Source: Gemmatimonadota bacterium (GTDB lineage: Bacteria > Latescibacterota > UBA2968 > UBA8231). Taken from it: 16,940 bases of DNA. The DNA lies in NCBI GenBank assembly GCA_002712305.1, contig PATE01000135.1, forward strand, positions 1 through 16,940, read 5' to 3'. Shown here in pieces: positions 1 through 16,940 of this stretch. The notes under the pieces were generated by a model. It had not been told where the DNA came from, did no database searches, and saw only the letters and a program-made list of their open reading frames with translations. A program made the translations under genes and the position numbers. Position 1 is the first letter of the stretch. Each line of letters starts with the position of its first letter.

Positions 1-599
1 GGCTGGTAGAAACAGTTGAACAACACCAGCCCATCGACACCGGCCTGGTCGAGGCGGTGGGGCATGTTGGCCATGGCACTGAAGTAGGGGCCGAGTTTGA
101 CGGCAACCGGCAGATCCACGGCCGATCGGACCTCGGAGAGGATGTCGAGGTATCGATCCTCCACATCATCGCCGGTTTCTTCCGGATCGGTCGGCAGATG
201 ATAGAGATTCAGCTCCAGCGCATCAGCACCGGCTGTCTCGATCTGACGGGCGTGTTCCGTCCAGCCACCGGGTGTGGATCCATTCAGACTGCCGATGATG
301 GGGATGTCGACGGCCTCCTTCAGGTGCTCGATGTGCGTGAGATAAGCGTCCGGCCCCGTCTCGTAACGGGCATGATCGGGGAAGTAGCCCATCACATCGC
401 CCCCATTTGGACGTCGATAGTGCTCGGGTGTCAACTCACCGTGGTGGATCTCCTCCTCGAACAGAGAGAACACGACCACGGCGGCGAGGCCTGCGTCCTC
501 CATGTGTCGAACCTGACCTACATCACGAGACAGGGGTGATGCGGACGCGACGAGGGGATTGCGCAGGGACAGGCCCAGATACTGCGTCTGCAGATCCAC
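1..599 (-). CDS. Dihydroorotate dehydrogenase-like FMN protein, 3' end beyond window
   Basis: The first about 199 residues of a TIM-barrel flavoprotein are visible and the reading frame runs off the left edge. The start is the GTG at 597-599, because AGGAGG lies six bases upstream and overlaps the stop of the preceding usp gene. Family features are NPLVASASPLSRD at residues 14-26, IIGSLNGSTPGGW at 101-113, ELNLYHLPTD at 129-138 and VAVKLGPY at 165-172. True class 1A enzymes have an Asn-Leu-Ser-Cys-Pro-like strand where this protein has NLYHLPTD, so it belongs to the PyrD-like group often found beside pyruvate:ferredoxin oxidoreductase genes rather than being a proven pyrimidine enzyme. The physiological substrate is unknown to me. 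It forms a two-gene unit with usp. Confidence 0.85.
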   Translation of the reverse strand, partial: MDLQTQYLGLSLRNPLVASASPLSRDVGQVRHMEDAGLAAVVVFSLFEEEIHHGELTPEHYRRPNGGDVMGYFPDHARYETGPDAYLTHIEHLKEAVDIPIIGSLNGSTPGGWTEHARQIETAGADALELNLYHLPTDPEETGDDVEDRYLDILSEVRSAVDLPVAVKLGPYFSAMANMPHRLDQAGVDGLVLFNCFYQ

Positions 600-609
600 G
601 ATCCACCTC

Positions 610-990
610 CTAGGGCATGATGAATTCGTGCTCGGGATGTTTCACGGTCAGGACGGGGCAGGGCGCCATCTGCACAATCTTCTCGGCGACACTGCCGATG
701 AGGGCGTGTTTGAGTCCACTTCGACCGTGGGTGGCCACCACGACCAGATCGATGTCTTCGTCGCGTGCGTGCTGCACGATCTGAACATGGGGCGAACCGA
801 CTCGCAGCGAGGTCACGACGTCGATCTCACCGATCGTTTCAGCCAGCTTGATCAGCCCTTTTTCGGCGTACTTCTCCAGGCGTTCGAGAATGTTGCTGCC
901 ATACTCCGGAAAAGCGACGCTTCCAGATGTGGCAATCCACTGTGCATCGATGACGTGCAGCAGATACAGTGAGGCGCCGTAGCTGCTGGC
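610..990 (-). pseudogene. Universal stress protein (UspA family), N-terminus missing
   Basis: The protein from SSYGASLYLLHVIDA to the C-terminus is a normal UspA domain. The ATP-loop region reads THGRSG...IGS, matching the family pattern G-2x-G-9x-G-(S/T) except that the first Gly is Ala, and the C-terminal strand is CPVLTVKHPEHEF. What is missing is the first roughly 35-40 residues, including beta-1 with the usual (R/H)ILVPxDFS motif. Upstream of about position 990 the minus frame stays open but encodes nothing like a USP, because that DNA is the 3' end of hemN on the other strand. The only available start, a TTG at 1071, is inside hemN and not credible. The stop codon overlaps the Shine-Dalgarno of the downstream PyrD-like gene, so the two were cotranscribed. 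I call it a truncated gene, either by deletion or by misassembly. Confidence 0.8.
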
Positions 991-991
991 C

Positions 992-1144
992 GGGCCCGTG
1001 AAGGATGGGTTCGTCATCATCACCGATGAAGCGATCGAAGTGACCGCCGAAGGCCAACTGTTCGTGCGCAATGTATGTATGCCCTTCGACCGCTATCTGC
1101 GAGAGAAGAGCCGCAGCAAGCCGACCTTTTCTCGAACGGTGTAG
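992..1144 (+). pseudogene. hemN: Oxygen-independent coproporphyrinogen III oxidase, C-terminal remnant
   Basis: On the plus strand about 48 codons read KDGFVIITDEAIEVTAEGQ, then LFVRNVCMPFDRYL, then KPTFSRTV and a TAG at 1142-1144. The order (D)GxVxI...xIxVTxxGxLFVRNVCMxFDxYL...KPxFSRT(V/I) is the extreme C-terminus of HemN, the radical-SAM enzyme converting coproporphyrinogen III to protoporphyrinogen IX without oxygen. A whole HemN is about 450-460 residues, so nearly 90% is absent. An in-frame TAG at 980-982 lies just upstream, in DNA that belongs to usp on the other strand. The ctaA start lies two bases after this stop, so hemN and ctaA were translationally coupled, which makes sense as a heme/heme A unit. 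Confidence 0.8.
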
Positions 1145-1146
1145 GG

Positions 1147-2244
1147 ATGACTCCGCCGGAGGTTGCACGAACCTCTACCGAGCCCGCGTGGCTTGAAAGA
1201 TGGTTGTGGATCGTCGCGTCCGCCTGCCTGCTGATGATCGTGGTGGGTGGCGTGGTCCGACTCACCCATTCGGGCTTGTCCATGACCGACTGGCGACCCG
1301 TCACCGGCGTTTTTCCGCCGCTGACTGAAGCGGCATGGCAGGCCGAGTTCTCCGCCTATCAGTTGACCCCCGAATACAAGAAGGTCAATGCCGGCATGAG
1401 TCTGGCTGAGTTTCGCTCGATCTTCTGGCCGGAATTCATTCATCGAGTGTTGGGCCGCGTCGTGGGACTCGTCGTCGCCATCCCGCTGTTGTTCGGCCTC
1501 GTGCGAGGCCTGTTTCCAACGCCTGTGCGTCTCCACGTGGTCGGGATCGGCCTGCTCTTTTTGGCCCAGGGCGTGATGGGCTGGCTCATGGTAAAGAGTG
1601 GTCTCGTCGACGATCCGAAGGTGAGTCCCTACCGGCTGGCTCTGCACCTTGCGCTGGCTCTGGCCCTTTTCGCGTGGTGTCTCTGGCTGATCTTCGAACG
1701 GCGCTGGTCCGCCATCCCGAATCAGATTGACCGGCGGACCCGAGAACTTGGCTCCGCGCTTCTGGCCACGGTCATCACGCAGATTCTGCTCGGAGCACTG
1801 GTCGCCGGGCATCGAGCCGGTCACGCGTCGGACACCTTTCCCTTCATGCACCGCCAACTCATCCCACACGGGTTGGGTGCGGATGAGCCGTGGATCTTGA
1901 ATCTGGTCGACAATCCGCTGACGGTGCACTTCGAACATCGCTGGTTCGCCTTCATCGTCTTTGCATTGTCGCTGACGCTCTATCTGCGACTGCGGCAGGT
2001 GAGCGCACCGGCTCCACTGCGCACAGCAGCCACGGCGCTGCTGCACATGCTCAGTTTGCAGATCCTACTGGGCATCGCCACCATTCTCACTCACGTTCCC
2101 GTCTGGCTTGCATCCCTGCATCAAGTGGGGGGTGTCGTCGTCTTCGGCCTCACGTGGCTGGTGTTTCATCAATCCAGGAAAGGCAACGTCTCAGCGGGCG
2201 GTGAGGTCTTCGCCGCCGGTGAGCCTGTGACCGGCGACCCTTGA
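1147..2244 (+). CDS. ctaA: Heme A synthase (COX15/CtaA, proteobacterial-mitochondrial type)
   Basis: A 365-residue inner-membrane protein that oxidises the C8 methyl of heme O to make heme A for cytochrome aa3-type oxidase. The signature of the long COX15-type branch is clear: GGVVRLTHSGLSMTDWRPVTG near the N-terminus, then an insertion with PEYKKVNAGMSLAEFRSIFWPEFIHRVLGR. Later His positions that serve as heme ligands in the family are visible in HRAGHASDTFPFM, VHFEHRWFAF and LHQVGGVVVF. About eight hydrophobic segments are present. I chose ATG 1147 over the upstream ATG at 1075 because the upstream part overlaps the hemN tail and because the gene then starts two bases after the hemN stop. 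Length is normal for the family and the reading frame is intact. Confidence 0.93.
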   Translation: MTPPEVARTSTEPAWLERWLWIVASACLLMIVVGGVVRLTHSGLSMTDWRPVTGVFPPLTEAAWQAEFSAYQLTPEYKKVNAGMSLAEFRSIFWPEFIHRVLGRVVGLVVAIPLLFGLVRGLFPTPVRLHVVGIGLLFLAQGVMGWLMVKSGLVDDPKVSPYRLALHLALALALFAWCLWLIFERRWSAIPNQIDRRTRELGSALLATVITQILLGALVAGHRAGHASDTFPFMHRQLIPHGLGADEPWILNLVDNPLTVHFEHRWFAFIVFALSLTLYLRLRQVSAPAPLRTAATALLHMLSLQILLGIATILTHVPVWLASLHQVGGVVVFGLTWLVFHQSRKGNVSAGGEVFAAGEPVTGDP

Positions 2245-2303: not shown

Positions 2304-3298
2304 GTGTCAGCGTCTCCCCTGTCCAACTCTGGAGAACGGGCCGCCGCCTGGCGGGCCCCTCTGGCGATCACTGTCGCCGGCTGGCTCCTGTTCGAGACCC
2401 TCTCTGGTCTCCTGATCCTGTTCCTACCCTTTGGTCTCACGCCTCAGTTCACCGTCGTGGTACATACCGGTGTGGGCTGCCTGTTCCTGCTGCCCTATCT
2501 GATATACCAGGTGCAGCACTGGTCGAGTTATCGATCATCGGCCTGGACTCACGTGAAACTCACCGAGTATGTCGCCTTCGGGGCGGCCATGGTCTGTGTC
2601 GTTTCGGGCGTCGTCCTCACCGTACAGGCGCTGGTAGGTACTCGTATCGGCTACGCGTGGGATCTGTTGCACACGGTGGGCACCTTCGCCCTGCTCGCCG
2701 CTGCGGTTCCACACGTGGTCACGCTGATGTTGAGGGTATGGGGAGCCGACCTGCTCGCGCCGCTGATCGCCGCCCAACAGCGGTGGATCGTGGGCACGGC
2801 AGGTTTCACTGTCCTCGGTCTGATCGGGGTGGCCGTGTGTATCGGTCTGTACAACCCGAGACGGGACCGCTGGTTCGCCTCGGTGAAGTGTCGCTGCTGC
2901 AAGGAGACATCGCTTCAGCCGATCGTTGGTTGGCGGCCGCAGCGCAGACCAATGCCCGTTCTGTGGCGGCTGTCTATCTGCGTGGCTACCTTGCCTGGCA
3001 TCGAGGAGATCTCGACCAGGCACAGACTCTGCTCACCCAAGCCGCCCTACTTGGCAGTGGAGTCGTGGCCGAAGCCAGCGGGTCTGCGGAGGGGCAGACG
3101 AAGCGAGGAAACCGTCCTCTACTCGAGGGGCGTCGGGCCTCGGAGTTGGCCCGCTTCTGGCGCCGCTTGCAGCGGGAATCTGTGGCCGATTCGACCCAGA
3201 TCGATCGAGGGTTGTCGGCGACGACCGAGTATCGGCAATTCGACCTCGCCCTGAGCAGTGCACGTGATCGTTTGGCTCGACCACCGGTAGATGGTTGA
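2304..3298 (+). pseudogene. Membrane cytochrome b / TPR protein, frame switch and probable internal deletion
   Basis: Starts at GTG 2304 with GGGAG eight bases upstream. The first about 185 residues form five hydrophobic helices (about 18-42, 50-70, 88-110, 122-143, 162-183). His54, His72, His123 and His137 are placed like the ligands of a di-heme cytochrome b561-like bundle. At about 2855-2875 the sensible frame changes: downstream coding lies in another frame and gives a TPR-like tail, with PLVRLGEVSLLQGD, ADRWLAAAAQTNARSVAAVY and GYLAWHRGDLDQAQTLL, ending at TGA 3298. From memory, similar proteins carry a multiheme c-type domain between membrane part and TPR tail. No CXXCH is present here, so the middle was probably deleted, though a simple frameshift is not excluded. 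It lies 59 bases after ctaA. Confidence 0.6.
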
Positions 3299-9466: not shown

Positions 9467-9740
9467 CACCCAGGCCTCCCTTCATTGCCGGCGCTCTGTG
9501 AGCGCCCTGCCGTTCTCTGCCCATTTCCAAGGCAACCTCTGTGCCAACCGTTTCTCAGGGAGAAAGGGCCAAGAAGGGGCACGATTGAGCGCTTCCTACG
9601 GGACCATTCGAGTCCCAGTGGGGCGAGAGTGCCACACGTGACGGCCTCCTCTGGTGCGCAGCAAGAACACTGGACAGGGCAGGGCGAACCACGGATTCTC
9701 CCGTAGATGACAACAGCAACCTCAACCCCACGAGTCCGCC
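9467..9740. other. Divergent intergenic region with two perfect short inverted repeats
   Basis: Between the small membrane ORF (minus) and the aldolase (plus) I see no convincing coding frame. It contains GGCGCTC-TGT-GAGCGCC (9490-9506), a seven-base stem with three-base loop, 23 bases upstream of the small ORF's start codon, and TTTCTC-AGG-GAGAAA (9551-9565), a 6-3-6 dyad. They may be operators or leader hairpins for the two divergent units. The aldolase ATG has no clear Shine-Dalgarno. Confidence 0.5.
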
Positions 9741-10766
9741 ATGAACGCCGACCCCCTCGTTCGTACTGCCGCTGAACTGGTCAGCCCAGATCGTGGTATT
9801 CTCGCAGCTGACGAGAGCAACAGCACCATCGCCAATCGGTTCGACGACATCGACACCGAATCGAGCCTCGACAACCGACGCGCCTATCGCGAACTGCTGT
9901 TCACCACACCGGACATGGAGCGCTATGTCAGTGGTGTCATCCTGTATGATGAGACCCTGAGACAGGAGGCGGCCGATGGAACCCCCTTCGTTCAACTTCT
10001 GGCGTCCAAGGGGGTTCAGGCGGGCATCAAGGTAGACCAAGGTCCACAGCCACTGGCGGGGTATCCCGGAGAGATGGTCACCGAGGGCCTCACGGGGCTG
10101 CGCGAACGTCTCAAGGAGTATGCAGATCTTGGCGCGAGTTTCGCCAAGTGGCGGGCGGTGATTGAGATCGATCCAGATGCCGGTATCCCGACGGCTGCGG
10201 GCATCGACGCCAATGCTCACGCCCTGGCGCGATATGCGGCGCTGTGTCAGGAGCAGGGTCTGGTGCCGATCGTCGAGCCGGAAGTCGTGATGGAAGGAAG
10301 TCACGATCTGGCCGCGTGTGAGGCGGCGACCGAGCATTCGCTCGCTACTGTCTTTGAGCACCTGCGGCGATTCGGCGTGCTGCTGGAAGGGGTGCTGCTC
10401 AAGCCGAACATGGTTGTCTCGGGAAAGACGTGTCCCACGCAAGCGAGCGTCGACGAGGTGGCCGCGGCAACGCTGCGCTGTTTTCGGCGTACGGTGCCTG
10501 CCGCCGTGCCGGGGATCGTCTTTCTCTCTGGGGGACAGTCGCCTCAAGACGCGACGGCCCACCTCAACGCAATGAACGCGATGGGACCCTCGCCCTGGGA
10601 ACTGAGCTACTCTTACGGACGCGCGCTGCAGCAGCCTGCACTGGCCGCCTGGCTTGGCAAACCGCAGAATGTGGAAGCCGCTCAGAGGGCCTTCGGCCAG
10701 CGGGCTAGACTCAACTCTCTGGCTCGCTCCGGTGCGTACGATGCGTCGATGGAGCTGGCCGCTTGA
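9741..10766 (+). CDS. Class I fructose-bisphosphate aldolase
   Basis: 341 residues, close to the classical eukaryotic-type class I aldolase. Motifs in order, with presumed muscle-enzyme equivalents: GILAADES with Asp25 (Asp33), GIKVDQG with Lys97 (Lys107), ASFAKWRAV with Lys136 (Lys146), VPIVEPEV with Glu179 (Glu187), and GVLLKPNMV with Lys221, the Schiff-base lysine (Lys229). LSGGQSPQDATAHLNAMN and WELSYSYGRALQ form the phosphate-binding part. It cleaves fructose 1,6-bisphosphate to the two triose phosphates, or runs in reverse for gluconeogenesis, without metal. It is a monocistronic gene by layout. ATG 9741 has no strong Shine-Dalgarno, but it gives the expected N-terminus. Confidence 0.95.
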   Translation: MNADPLVRTAAELVSPDRGILAADESNSTIANRFDDIDTESSLDNRRAYRELLFTTPDMERYVSGVILYDETLRQEAADGTPFVQLLASKGVQAGIKVDQGPQPLAGYPGEMVTEGLTGLRERLKEYADLGASFAKWRAVIEIDPDAGIPTAAGIDANAHALARYAALCQEQGLVPIVEPEVVMEGSHDLAACEAATEHSLATVFEHLRRFGVLLEGVLLKPNMVVSGKTCPTQASVDEVAAATLRCFRRTVPAAVPGIVFLSGGQSPQDATAHLNAMNAMGPSPWELSYSYGRALQQPALAAWLGKPQNVEAAQRAFGQRARLNSLARSGAYDASMELAA

Positions 10767-10772
10767 CGAGAC

Positions 10773-10967
10773 TCAGGCGTCGAGAGCGACGAGGGTAAGG
10801 CCGAGGTCTTTCTCAGCCGCCTGCAAGCGGTTCAGTTCGTCGTCTGACAGGGATGCGGGTTCGCCAGGCAGTCCGGTGAGGGCAACGATGCAGCGACCGG
10901 TCTGCTTTTCCAGATCCTGAAGTACATCCAGCTGATCGGCGGTGAGTTGGGCGACACTGAAAATCAC
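10773..10967 (-). CDS. Small protein of 64 residues, unknown function
   Basis: The longer ORF reaches 11039, but the GTG at 10965-10967 is favoured because GGAGG lies seven bases upstream and the product then starts MIFSVAQLTADQLDVL. The rest is QDLEKQTGRCIVALTGLP, GEPASLSDDELNRLQAAEKDL, GLTLVALDA. It looks like a compact alpha/beta protein with two helices rich in Glu, Asp and Leu and two short strands (CIVALTG and LTLVALD), one Cys and no signal or membrane segment. It ends six bases from the aldolase stop, convergently, and is divergent from the enolase remnant. I do not recognise a family. Confidence 0.6.
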   Translation of the reverse strand: MIFSVAQLTADQLDVLQDLEKQTGRCIVALTGLPGEPASLSDDELNRLQAAEKDLGLTLVALDA

Positions 10968-11053
10968 GGGGAACCTCCGGGGAAAGTTTCTGTGAGACAT
11001 GCGACAAAATACAGACCGCGATGGACACAAGACAATCACGTGGATCGGATCGC

Positions 11054-11310
11054 ATGAAAATCACCCACTTTGAGCGCACCGTTGTCCGGGTACCCTTCGA
11101 ACCCGGCATCGTCACGGACGAGTTCTGGGAGGTGCGTGACGCCTACCCCGAAACCCTCGACCGGCGATGCCACGATGTGTGTCGGCTGCACACCGATGCA
11201 GGTCTGGTCGGCCTGGGAATGAGCGATCCCTACTATGATGAGCGGGCCGACACGCCCCCGGAGGAATGGCTTGGCCGTGAGCCTGAGTCGTTTGAGAGCG
11301 GCGATGAATC
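11054..11310 (+). pseudogene. Enolase-superfamily gene, N-terminal remnant
   Basis: ATG 11054 starts MKITHFERTVVRVPFEPG, then EFWEVRDAYPETLDRRCHDV, RLHTDAGLVGLGMSDPYYDE and EEWLGREPESFESGDESLA. This is the capping-domain N-terminus of the mandelate racemase/muconate lactonising type (MKIT..E......PF..., then hTD.GlvGlG). After about residue 80-85 the similarity stops. The frame stays open by chance to join the next enolase gene, but the intervening 240 bases encode nothing family-like, and no barrel domain or metal ligands exist for this copy. It was probably cut by a deletion or an assembly join near 11300. The end coordinate is approximate. Confidence 0.6.
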
Positions 11311-11539
11311 GTTGGCGTCGTGTCATTCGATCGGCGTCATGCTTTCGGGTTGCGGGCGGTCATCTGGTCAGTGTACCCGAACCGAGGACACCCCGACCCC
11401 GGCGTGCGTCGGCTTTGCCTGTCACAAGGGGGGCGACTGGATCCGTAGGCAGTGCGGACCGACATTTCGCGCATCTGCCTTCCACGATCGAGTCGGATTC
11501 GTTTATGGCCTGCGCGTCAGGTCCAGGAGAATTGCCAGG
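11311..11539. other. Stretch without recognisable gene between enolase remnant and intact enolase gene
   Basis: The plus frame shared with both enolase genes is open, but it gives a Cys-, Ser- and Arg-rich translation unlike either. The other frames yield short Arg-rich products with no motif I recognise. The last part must hold the ribosome site (AGGAGA, 11525-11530) and possibly the promoter of the gene at 11540. Confidence 0.5.
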
Positions 11540-12625
11540 ATGAAGATCACCGAGATCACCACATATCCCGTGTTCATTCCCTACGAAGTGCCCGTGGGGC
11601 CGTATGTCGGTCGGCCACGTACAAGCCGCGACGACGAACAAAATGCGGGGACGCTCGGTGCCACGGCCTTGATCGTGCGCATCGATTCTGACGAGGGCAT
11701 CACGGGCTGGGGCGAAGGCACCGGCTCGCTCTCGCCTGAAGACATCGCCGCATTCGGTGGCGCAGACGCGCTGAACATCGAGGGGGCGTTAGCGATCATT
11801 CATCAGGCCGGGATTGGCACAGGTCCCGCATCCGGTATCGAGATGGCCCTGTGGGATCTACAGGGCAAGGCAGCTGGCCTGCCCGTGCACACGCTGCTGG
11901 GTGGGCGTGTGCGGGATCGGGCACAGTTCACCGCCTGCATGGGGATCAAGGAACCTGAAGAGTCCGCACAGACGGCGCGGATCTACTTCGAGCGCTGGGG
12001 GTTCACGTCGATCAAGACGAAGGCCGGACACGATGCGGAACTGGATCTGGCCATTGCCGCCGCCATCGTGAAGGAGATGGGTGATCAGGCGCAACTGCGT
12101 CCTGATGCGAATGCCGGCTACAGCGAGCAGATCGGCGTTGAACAGATGCAGCGCATGCGAGATGTGGGGGTGACGCGTTTCGAAGATCCAGTCGCACGTG
12201 AGCACCTCGATGCGCTGGTGCAGATGCGCAAAGAAGGGACGCAGATCCTGGTGAACATGGGCGTCGCAGGACCTGGCAGTGTGGCCGATCTGCTCGTGGC
12301 AGGCGCCGCCGATGCGCTTATGCCCGACACACCGGCTGCCGGCGGGTTGTTACCGGTTCAGAAGGTGGCGCGTGTGGCGGAGGGGTTCGACGTGCCGTGT
12401 CTGATGCACTGTGCCCACGATCTGGGACTCAAGACGGCGGCGATCACCCACATGGCGGCGGCGACACCGAACTTCTCGGGTCCGAATGACACGTGTTATC
12501 ACGGACTGATCGACGATGTGCTCACCGAATCGCTCGTGTTCGAGGGCGGCTGCATCGCTGTGCCCGAGGGGCCGGGGTTGGGCGTGGTCGTGGCGGAGGA
12601 AAAGCTGAGCCAGTACGCGATCTAG
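11540..12625 (+). CDS. Enolase-superfamily enzyme (mandelate racemase/muconate lactonising type) with Asn as third metal ligand
   Basis: 361 residues from ATG 11540, chosen over the in-frame start at 11021 because AGGAGA lies nine bases upstream and MKITEITTYPVFIPY is a textbook N-terminus. The capping domain includes ALIVRIDSDEGITGWGEG. In the barrel the general base motif is IKTKAG (Lys159, Lys161), metal ligands are DANAGY (Asp189) and RFEDP (Glu215), and the Asp-His dyad is DTPAAGG (Asp263) with LMHCAHD (His290). At the third metal position, normally Glu or Asp, the sequence is ILVNMGVAG, so Asn239 would serve, as Asn does in glucarate dehydratase. It probably dehydrates or epimerises a carboxylic sugar acid or similar; the substrate is unknown. 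It stands as a single gene. Confidence 0.88.
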   Translation: MKITEITTYPVFIPYEVPVGPYVGRPRTSRDDEQNAGTLGATALIVRIDSDEGITGWGEGTGSLSPEDIAAFGGADALNIEGALAIIHQAGIGTGPASGIEMALWDLQGKAAGLPVHTLLGGRVRDRAQFTACMGIKEPEESAQTARIYFERWGFTSIKTKAGHDAELDLAIAAAIVKEMGDQAQLRPDANAGYSEQIGVEQMQRMRDVGVTRFEDPVAREHLDALVQMRKEGTQILVNMGVAGPGSVADLLVAGAADALMPDTPAAGGLLPVQKVARVAEGFDVPCLMHCAHDLGLKTAAITHMAAATPNFSGPNDTCYHGLIDDVLTESLVFEGGCIAVPEGPGLGVVVAEEKLSQYAI

Positions 12626-13790: not shown

Positions 13791-14383
13791 ATGACTTTCT
13801 GGATGAAGCGACTCCACATGTATTCGGGGCTGCTGAACGCAGCGGCCTTGCTGTTGTTCGGGCTCGTCGGCATTGCGGCTACCTTATTGCCCCGGCACAA
13901 TCAGCGAGATACGCCGGAGTCTACGTCGCAGATGATCGATTTTGTCATCCCCGGCGACCTCGACGACCGGCAGCTGGCCGACCACATCCAGCGTGAGTTG
14001 GCTATTCCCCTCACAGGTCCTGCACCCAACTGGTCGTTTTGGCACGATGGTGACCAGAATCTGCACTTCCGCCTGCCCACGCCCGCCCGCCGCTACGATA
14101 TCACCGTGCGGAGGCGCGAAATCAGGTGCAAATTCGGACGCAGCCCTTCGACAAGTGGCAGTACATGATGCACCTGCACGAGATGACGCCCAGTCGCAAC
14201 GAGGGCGATTGGCGGATCACATCATGGGCGGTGTATATGGAGTTCTCCCTCTGGTCGCTGATCTTCATGGCCCTCAGCGGCGTGTATCTCTGGCTCGCCT
14301 CACGTCCCGGGCATCGTTGGGCGCAGATCTGCTTCGGCGCGGGAACGGCGATATTCATCCTCTTCTACGCGGCGGTGCGGTGA
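13791..14383 (+). pseudogene. PepSY-associated membrane protein, first of a pair, single frameshift
   Basis: The N-terminal frame (from ATG 13791) gives MTFWMKRLHMYSGLLNAAALLLFG, a first helix, then a periplasmic PepSY-like part with DDRQLADHIQRELAIPL and FRLPTPARRYDITVRR, and would stop at about 14168 after a nonsense tail. The frame shifted by one base encodes the expected continuation: VQIRTQPFDKWQYMMHLHEM, then two helices (AVYMEFSLWSLIFMALSGVYLWLA and AQICFGAGTAIFILFYAAV) ending at TGA 14383. The switch lies in the GC-rich run at about 14105-14125 and needs one missing base. Such paired PepSY-TM proteins often accompany TonB-dependent receptors or metal reduction, but none is visible here. 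Its stop overlaps the next start (TGATG). Confidence 0.75.
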
Positions 14384-14543
14384 TGTATCGGGTTCTGCGC
14401 GATACACATCTGCTCGTCGGCCTCGGGCTGTTCGCCTTCGTGCTGATGTTCGGCGTAAGCAGCGTGAAGTTCGCCCATCGGGACTGGTTCTCGAATGACC
14501 CCGTCGAAACACACCTGACCGTGCAGATCGATCCGTCTGTGGC
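14383..14543 (+). pseudogene. PepSY-associated membrane protein, second of a pair, 3' end missing
   Basis: Starts at ATG 14383, overlapping the TGA of the first gene by one base. Residues MYRVLRDTHLLVGLGLFAFVLMFGVSSV form one signal-anchor helix typical of the second member of such pairs, followed by FAHRDWFSNDP and THLTVQIDPSVAET. From about position 14540 the DNA is better read on the other strand as a transcription regulator, and the plus frame gives a Ser/Arg-rich nonsense tail to 14646. Everything after the first about 53-56 residues is therefore missing. The end coordinate is the inferred join. Confidence 0.65.
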
Positions 14544-14642
14544 AGAGACGTCGAAGATTTCTGCCAGTTGGGCTGCTGTGAGTTTTCGGCGGGAACGCAG
14601 CAGCAGGATGATGGCCAGCAGGCGGTCGGTGCGGTTCGTCAT
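14544..14642 (-). pseudogene. WYL-type (YafY-like) HTH regulator, N-terminal remnant
   Basis: On the minus strand ATG at 14640-14642 starts MTNRTDRLLAIILLLRSRRK followed by LTAAQLAEIFDVS. This is the first helix pair of the DeoR-like winged HTH found at the N-terminus of WYL-domain regulators, where it normally continues (V/T)RTIYRDIxAL. Here it changes after 33 residues into the reverse complement of the PepSY gene. The whole effector domain (about 200 residues) is missing. The identification rests on these 33 residues only. A strong inverted repeat lies 19 bases upstream of its start. Confidence 0.6.
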
Positions 14643-14661
14643 GTGAATGAAGATAGCCGCT

Positions 14662-14687
14662 CTCCCTGACAACCCCATGTCAGGGAG
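14662..14687. promoter_or_regulatory. Perfect 10-6-10 inverted repeat upstream of the WYL regulator remnant
   Basis: CTCCCTGACA (14662-14671) and TGTCAGGGAG (14678-14687) are exact complements around ACCCCA. It sits in the region between the minus-strand regulator remnant and the plus-strand crotonase, and has the size and GACA/TGTC halves expected of an operator for a dimeric YafY/WYL-type regulator. A T-run does not follow directly on either strand, which argues against a terminator. Confidence 0.6.
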
Positions 14688-14709
14688 GATTTCATCGGGT
14701 CGAAAAAAG

Positions 14710-14791
14710 TAAGGTCGACGTAACTGCTTGGGGAGGAGCAAAATAGCAGGCGGTGAACACTGGCCCCCGCTCGTCGAGGTGGTTTTTTTCA
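14710..14791 (+). other. Noncoding stretch with a possible stem closing before a seven-T run
   Basis: In the gap upstream of the crotonase gene, TCGACG (about 14715-14720) can pair with CGTCGA (about 14772-14777), and the second arm is followed by GGTGG and a run of seven T ending near 14789. Internal segments such as GCT...AGC and GGCGG...CCGC allow further helices. This could be a terminator of a small transcript or a leader RNA. It matches no riboswitch class that I recognise. Confidence 0.2.
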
Positions 14792-14851
14792 ACGTGTCAG
14801 TAGATTGTCACCCCACAGCACGATCGCCATCCAACAAAACAGGAGAGGCAG

Positions 14852-15643: not shown

Positions 15644-16872
15644 CCCCGCCGCAAAGTGTTCCGACAGGTGACGCCAATCTCGGTGCGCTGCAGGGCGTGC
15701 GGATTCTGGATTTCACCCATGTCTATCAGGGACCGGTCTGTACGCAGTTGCTCGCCGACTTCGGTGCGGATGTGATCAAGGTTGAGCGTCCCGGGACGGG
15801 GGATTGGAGTCGCCAGTGGGGTCCCTTCGTCGGCGACGTGAGTCTTCCCTATGCGGGTCTCAATCGCAACAAGCGTTCTCTGGCGCTGAATCTGAAGGAC
15901 GAACGGGGCCTGGCGATCATGCACAAGCTCGTCACTCGCTCCGACGTTCTGGTGCACAACTTCCGACCCGGGGCAATGGAGAAACTCGGCCTCGGATACG
16001 ACGACGCCCGCAAGCTGAATCCACGACTCGTGTACGCCACCTCCAGTGGATGGGGCGACGAAGGCCCTTATGTCGAACGAGGTCGCGGTGGACACGACAT
16101 GATGGCGCGGGCCACATCGGGATTGTTCGATGGCGTGGATAAATTTGGCCAACCTGCCCCGGCGGGGATCTCCGCCGACTACGTGGCCGGTCTGCTTCTG
16201 GGGCAGGCGATCCTCATCGCCCTGCTGGCGCGCGAACGGACCGGTGAAGGCCAGTGTGTGACGACGGATCTGCTCAGTGCCGGGTTCCACGCCAACACGT
16301 GGAATGGCACCCAGCAGCTGAATCCAGACCGTATCGACAGGGAGGGACACATCGGCGCTGCTGAAAAGGCGCTGCGTCGTGTCTATCGGACAGCCGACGA
16401 CTACATCGAACTGTCACCGACGTTTTCCCCCACCGGATTTCAGGATCTTGCGTTGGCCCTGGGGCTCGACGACCTGCCGGAGGATCCACGGTTCTCAACC
16501 AATGATGCCCTGCTGGCGCATCGAGAAGAGCTGAACCAGATCGTCGCCGCTCGTTTCGCCGAGCAGACGACGTCGGCGTGGATGGCACAGCTGGAACCTC
16601 AGGGAATTCTGTGCGCGGAAGTGAAGACCTTCGAGCAGGCTGCCGAGGACGAGCAGGTCCACGCCAACAACATGGTCATCGATCTGCAACACCCGCGGGC
16701 AGGAACGCTGAAAGTGCAGGGCACACCCATTCGCATGAGTGAAACGCCAAGCCACATCGACAGAGCCCCACCGGATCTCGGTGCCGATGGCCGGCAGATC
16801 CTGGCCGAACTGGAATACGATCCTGGCGAGATTGATGTGTTTGCCAGCGATGGGGTTTTCGACGAGGAGTAG
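15640..16872 (+). CDS. CaiB/BaiF family (class III) CoA-transferase
   Basis: 410 residues. The in-frame ATG at 15628 is rejected in favour of ATG 15640, which overlaps the preceding stop as ATGA and has AAGGGA just upstream. Family features: GVRILDFTHVYQGPVCTQLLADFGADVIKVE (residues 19-49), NRNKRSLALNLK, NFRPGAMEKLGLGYDD, and GRGGHDMMARATSGL, where Asp153 is the expected nucleophile that forms the aspartyl-CoA anhydride (Asp169 in formyl-CoA transferase). ERTGEGQCVTTDLL and the C-terminal GTPIRMSETP are also typical. It moves CoA between carboxylic acids, or between succinyl-CoA and an acid. With the crotonase it makes an activate-then-dehydrate or hydrate module of the carnitine type. The substrate cannot be read from sequence. 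Confidence 0.94.
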   Translation: MTPPQSVPTGDANLGALQGVRILDFTHVYQGPVCTQLLADFGADVIKVERPGTGDWSRQWGPFVGDVSLPYAGLNRNKRSLALNLKDERGLAIMHKLVTRSDVLVHNFRPGAMEKLGLGYDDARKLNPRLVYATSSGWGDEGPYVERGRGGHDMMARATSGLFDGVDKFGQPAPAGISADYVAGLLLGQAILIALLARERTGEGQCVTTDLLSAGFHANTWNGTQQLNPDRIDREGHIGAAEKALRRVYRTADDYIELSPTFSPTGFQDLALALGLDDLPEDPRFSTNDALLAHREELNQIVAARFAEQTTSAWMAQLEPQGILCAEVKTFEQAAEDEQVHANNMVIDLQHPRAGTLKVQGTPIRMSETPSHIDRAPPDLGADGRQILAELEYDPGEIDVFASDGVFDEE

Positions 16873-16876
16873 GCGG

Positions 16877-16940
16877 ATGACGCCGGGTCGGCGTCGCTGG
16901 TCTGAGCTACAGCAGGACCACGTGCGGTCTAAGGTGTCCA
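16877..16940 (+). CDS. Start of a further ORF in the same operon, cut by window edge
   Basis: AGGAG precedes ATG 16877 at a suitable distance, overlapping the stop region of the CoA-transferase gene. The frame is open for the 21 codons left (MTPGRRRWSELQQD, then HVRSKVS). Spacing and strand suggest a third member of the crotonase/CoA-transferase operon. Too short to assign a family. Confidence 0.5.
   Translation, partial: MTPGRRRWSELQQDHVRSKVS

Follow-up and report, generated by a model that had tools for sequence, protein, structure and literature searches.

A universal stress protein gene (usp) and hemN, which lie divergently side by side in related bacteria, have both lost their 5' ends at a single point in the genome of an uncultivated Gemmatimonadota bacterium. 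The probable cause is a genuine and recent loss of about 1.67 kb, either fixed in this population or still segregating, which may have arisen through slippage or through end joining at short repeated sequence and was tolerated alongside hemF. The window, meaning the whole stretch of DNA analyzed, is the complete contig C135 (16,940 bp) of a MAG (G000) of 4.77 Mb in 146 contigs that is 90.9% complete. Our main reference was G001 (SI074_bin69), the sole genome of the same genus that was compared; three other relatives with usp and hemN (G005, G011, and G017) belong to the same family. No second genome of the same species was found among the genomes searched. The features around the join are as follows.

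610 to 990, minus strand: usp remnant, with residues 28 to 160 of 160 kept and the 27 N-terminal residues lost (tblastn with G001 Usp)
983 to 991, no strand: deletion join, CTGCTGGCC, placed by blastn ends at 985 and 989 and by codon comparison with four relatives
989 to 1144, plus strand: hemN remnant, comprising the last 51 residues and the stop codon (tblastn, 83% identity with the C terminus of G001 HemN)
991 to 998, no strand: palindrome CGGGCCCG, native to hemN (Gly-Pro-Val codons) and not created by the join
1147 to 2244, plus strand: ctaA/COX15 haem A synthase, intact (PF02628, 6e-96) and directly 3' of hemN, as in G001 and G005

The loss of both 5' ends at one point had been proposed in a sequence-only reading of this DNA, and Pfam and tblastn confirmed its coordinates and the identity of both genes. 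On the minus strand, positions 610 to 990 match the Usp family (PF00582, 3.4e-25) over profile positions 27 to 141 of 141. That reading was right that usp is truncated at its 5' end but put the loss at 35 to 40 residues; only 27 are missing. A functional Usp has the complete domain including the first strand, and with that strand and the promoter gone, the remnant is probably dead. The plus strand from 989 to 1144 translates as AGPVKDGFVIITDEAIEVTAEGQLFVRNVCMPFDRYLREKSRSKPTFSRTV followed by a stop codon, a 51-residue C terminus that shares 83% identity with the final part of G001 HemN (463 residues). Residues 1 to 412 are lost. The radical-SAM core of a functional HemN, with its CxxxCxxC cluster, is gone from what is left (residues 413 to 463 alone); in G001, PF04055 lies at 92 to 265 of the open reading frame (ORF). 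Both remnants are expected to be nonfunctional.

A divergent ancestral pair, as that reading had supposed, is what the relatives carry. In G001, usp (160 amino acids) and hemN (463 amino acids) are full length, divergent, and adjacent, with ctaA after hemN, and the full-length divergent pair is present in all four relatives that have it (G001, G005, G011, and G017). Using blastn, we found homology between the window and G001 at 608 to 985 and again from 989 on; between these two stretches, the window lacks about 1.67 kb of G001 sequence. The absent DNA, at approximately 985 to 991, is one contiguous block of G001 with both flanks collinear. The flanks are adjacent and in the same orientation in the relatives and a single block is missing, as in a simple deletion. 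The missing block had no match elsewhere in the assembly (about 91% complete), which gives no sign of its relocation. A deletion is thus supported, because the pair is complete in the relatives, the gap is a single one, and the missing DNA matches nothing else. One event accounts for both truncations, at about 1.67 kb against a guess of about 1.5 kb. The sequence-only reading had also entertained an inversion or a chimera of distant pieces; both were rejected because the two sides of the join neighbor each other in the same orientation in the four relatives.

At the join itself (GTAGCTGCTGGCCGGGCCCGTGAAGG), the two remnants meet with an overlap of two bases. Usp codons can be traced to about 991, and HemN codons can be traced back to 989 for certain and possibly to 983. 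The sequence common to both sides is therefore GCC (989 to 991) for certain and possibly as much as CTGCTGGCC (9 bp), an uncertain length, since the ancestral sequence has to be read from relatives at approximately 70 to 80% identity. Since about 6% of random joins would share at least 3 bases by chance, this repeat is weak evidence on its own. The palindrome CGGGCCCG does lie at 991 to 998, as had been noted, but it says nothing about the join: the octamer belongs to hemN and is present at the same codons in the intact hemN of G005, so it was discarded as a cause. The window contains 74 perfect eight-base palindromes, and this octamer occurs in it twice (991 and 7095).

We propose that one deletion of about 1.67 kb took the beginning of usp, the divergent promoter region that the two genes shared, and codons 1 to 412 of hemN, and so would have left the remnants joined head to head. 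It may be the result of replication slippage or of end joining, with the short repeat (3 to 9 bp) as its site. In a search with the HemN protein, no other full-length HemN-like match was found in the assembly; besides the tail, there was only a 26%-identical relative on C26. The loss of hemN would abolish oxygen-independent coproporphyrinogen oxidase activity. With oxygen, haem synthesis can go on through HemF, which is intact on C45, and ferrochelatase (hemH) is intact on C84. Because hemF, the oxygen-dependent coproporphyrinogen oxidase gene, is intact, hemN is probably dispensable in this genome, and its loss may have been tolerated for that reason. The annotation is corrected accordingly, with no functional Usp at this locus and no HemN in the assembly, and the result suggests that haem synthesis in the species relies on the oxygen-dependent HemF.

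The usp-hemN join is one of three in this 17-kb contig. The other two involve the following features.

2304 to 2860, plus strand: multihaem cytochrome remnant, the N-terminal ~187 residues of 714, ending at the CCGAG join (2856 to 2860)
2856 to 3298, plus strand: TPR gene remnant, the C-terminal part of a gene that encodes 304 amino acids in G001, fused out of frame to the cytochrome remnant
11054 to 11276, plus strand: enolase-superfamily (MR/MLE) fragment, N-terminal, cut at the third join; full-length homologue on C547 of G005

At 2856 to 2860, the window lacks 4,007 bp that in G001 lie between two identical CCGAG pentamers. This loss takes most of the multihaem cytochrome gene, the whole of an FG-GAP/ASPIC-UnbV gene, and the first half of the TPR gene, and the missing 4.0-kb piece is also absent from the rest of the assembly. 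The MR/MLE ORF breaks off at approximately 11276, some 80 residues in, and continues in frame into DNA from upstream of a second MR/MLE gene, which in G001 is on a different contig. The 534-residue ORF listed at 11021 to 12625 is consequently not one gene, since this join fuses two MR/MLE pieces. Elsewhere in the window, a class I fructose-bisphosphate aldolase (9741 to 10766) lies within 9546 to 10795, where G001 has only about 180 bp, and the stretch from 13791 to 14792 holds PepSY-type and HTH-type fragments with broken frames, possibly more truncated genes.

A census of gene breakage against G001 covered about 100 kb of contig stretches. No gene was truncated by deletion in C4 (~20 kb), an insertion of about 0.9 kb interrupted one gene in C84 (~19 kb), and C6 (~20 kb) showed a single minor case at most. 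In C45 (12 kb), one heparinase-like gene was truncated and the chloride-channel gene next to it was lost. The first 10 kb of C3, compared with C15 of G001, had several truncated accessory genes (LanC-like, methyltransferase, and GDSL lipase). In the ~100 kb compared, the broken genes are accessory (usp, hemN, multihaem cytochrome, ASPIC/UnbV, TPR, MR/MLE, LanC-like, and heparinase-like), while adk, ctaA, the malic enzyme gene, hemF, and hemH are intact. In this small sample, the restriction of breakage to accessory genes fits real deletions that passed through selection better than it fits random errors of assembly.

The remnants are undecayed. Those of usp, hemN, the cytochrome, and the TPR gene contain no stops in approximately 470 codons. 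Their pN values are 0.10 for usp (0.096), 0.10 for hemN (0.103), 0.15 for the cytochrome, and 0.29 for the TPR gene, compared with 0.06 to 0.23 for intact neighbors, and pS is about 0.5 to 0.7 throughout; only the TPR remnant slightly exceeds the range of the intact genes. Because the remnants are free of stops and mostly under normal constraint, the deletions took place long after the split from G001, or they are artefacts.

Overlaps with two neighboring contigs bear on how the assembly should be read. C79 overlaps positions 1 to 392 of the window at 97 to 98% identity as an unmerged contig end, and it lacks 84 bp, in frame, between two copies of CGGCAGAT that the window and G001 keep (window 108 to 199 versus C79 1 to 308). 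C90 (36327 to 36856) overlaps positions 16438 to 16940 nearly identically, with a few differing or N positions, and carries 27 bp more than the window, bounded by GACGCCGGG repeats. Both small deletions lie at direct repeats of 8 to 9 bp, and slippage deletions typically have short direct repeats at their ends. Since both overlaps differ from the window by indels of this kind, variants with deletions at short repeats have entered the bin. Signs of assembly quality are mixed, with unmerged overlapping contig ends, scattered Ns, and G-rich contig ends. The Ns are scattered singly in C90, and the start of C4 and the end of C79 have G-rich, low-complexity ends resembling sequencing or assembly debris.

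It is possible, and a tentative reading of the overlaps, that the deletion is real but present in one strain only, and that the bin mixes in strains that keep both genes. C79, with its divergence and 84-bp deletion, and C90, with its 27-bp indel, show that the bin holds more than one allele, but the assembly contains the usp-hemN region only once. The same overlaps, unmerged on both sides and themselves differing by short-repeat deletions, fit a rather unlikely account in which the ~1.67 kb was skipped, whether by the assembler, in the merging of contigs, or through template switching in amplification, and usp and hemN are intact in the living organism. Ns and G-rich ends elsewhere in the assembly agree with it. 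So do two observations that count against a real deletion, namely, that three joins are many for 17 kb and that the remnants are undecayed, as an artefact would also leave them. However, the skipped DNA is in no other contig, and in the ~100 kb compared, only accessory genes are broken. De Bruijn joins require long shared words, and the flanks of the usp-hemN and 4.0-kb joins share at most 3 to 9 bp, which makes an artefact less plausible.

That the two ORFs are normal genes, encoding a conserved short Usp and a conserved HemN-tail protein that stands alone, is highly improbable. Both frames are open, and an alternative TTG start at 1071 would give a 153-residue minus-strand ORF, but its added residues are antisense hemN. 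The sequence-only reading had named such an arrangement in relatives as evidence against its deletion; the comparison of neighborhoods found none, and the full-length versions in G001, G005, G011, and G017 refute it, barring short forms in a closer relative. The locus is probably the result of an ordinary deletion that broke two genes, with an assembly error as the less likely cause, and does not represent a new type of gene. We infer both the mechanism of the deletion and that it is real DNA rather than an assembly error. It is doubtful that the lineage as a whole is in a phase of gene loss dominated by deletion, an unusually deletion-prone population with many recent, partly segregating short-repeat deletions and few point-mutated pseudogenes. 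By itself, the usp-hemN deletion matters little. If the pattern of many short-repeat deletions is real, this population offers a view of genome shrinkage in progress; if it is artefactual, it is a warning about claims of gene loss made from this MAG.

Compared with the universal stress protein family (PF00582), the usp remnant retains most of the profile (27 to 141 of 141) and lacks the first 27 residues and the promoter region. HemN, the oxygen-independent coproporphyrinogen III oxidase, combines Radical_SAM (PF04055) and HemN_C (PF06969) domains; the remnant keeps the final 51 residues, 83% identical to G001, without the Radical-SAM domain and most of HemN_C. The event as a whole resembles the short-direct-repeat deletions of bacteria, attributed to RecA-independent slippage or alternative end joining, in that one stretch was lost, the ends may share a repeat of a few bases, and two truncated genes were left behind, and it differs from them in the uncertain length of its repeat (3 to 9 bp).
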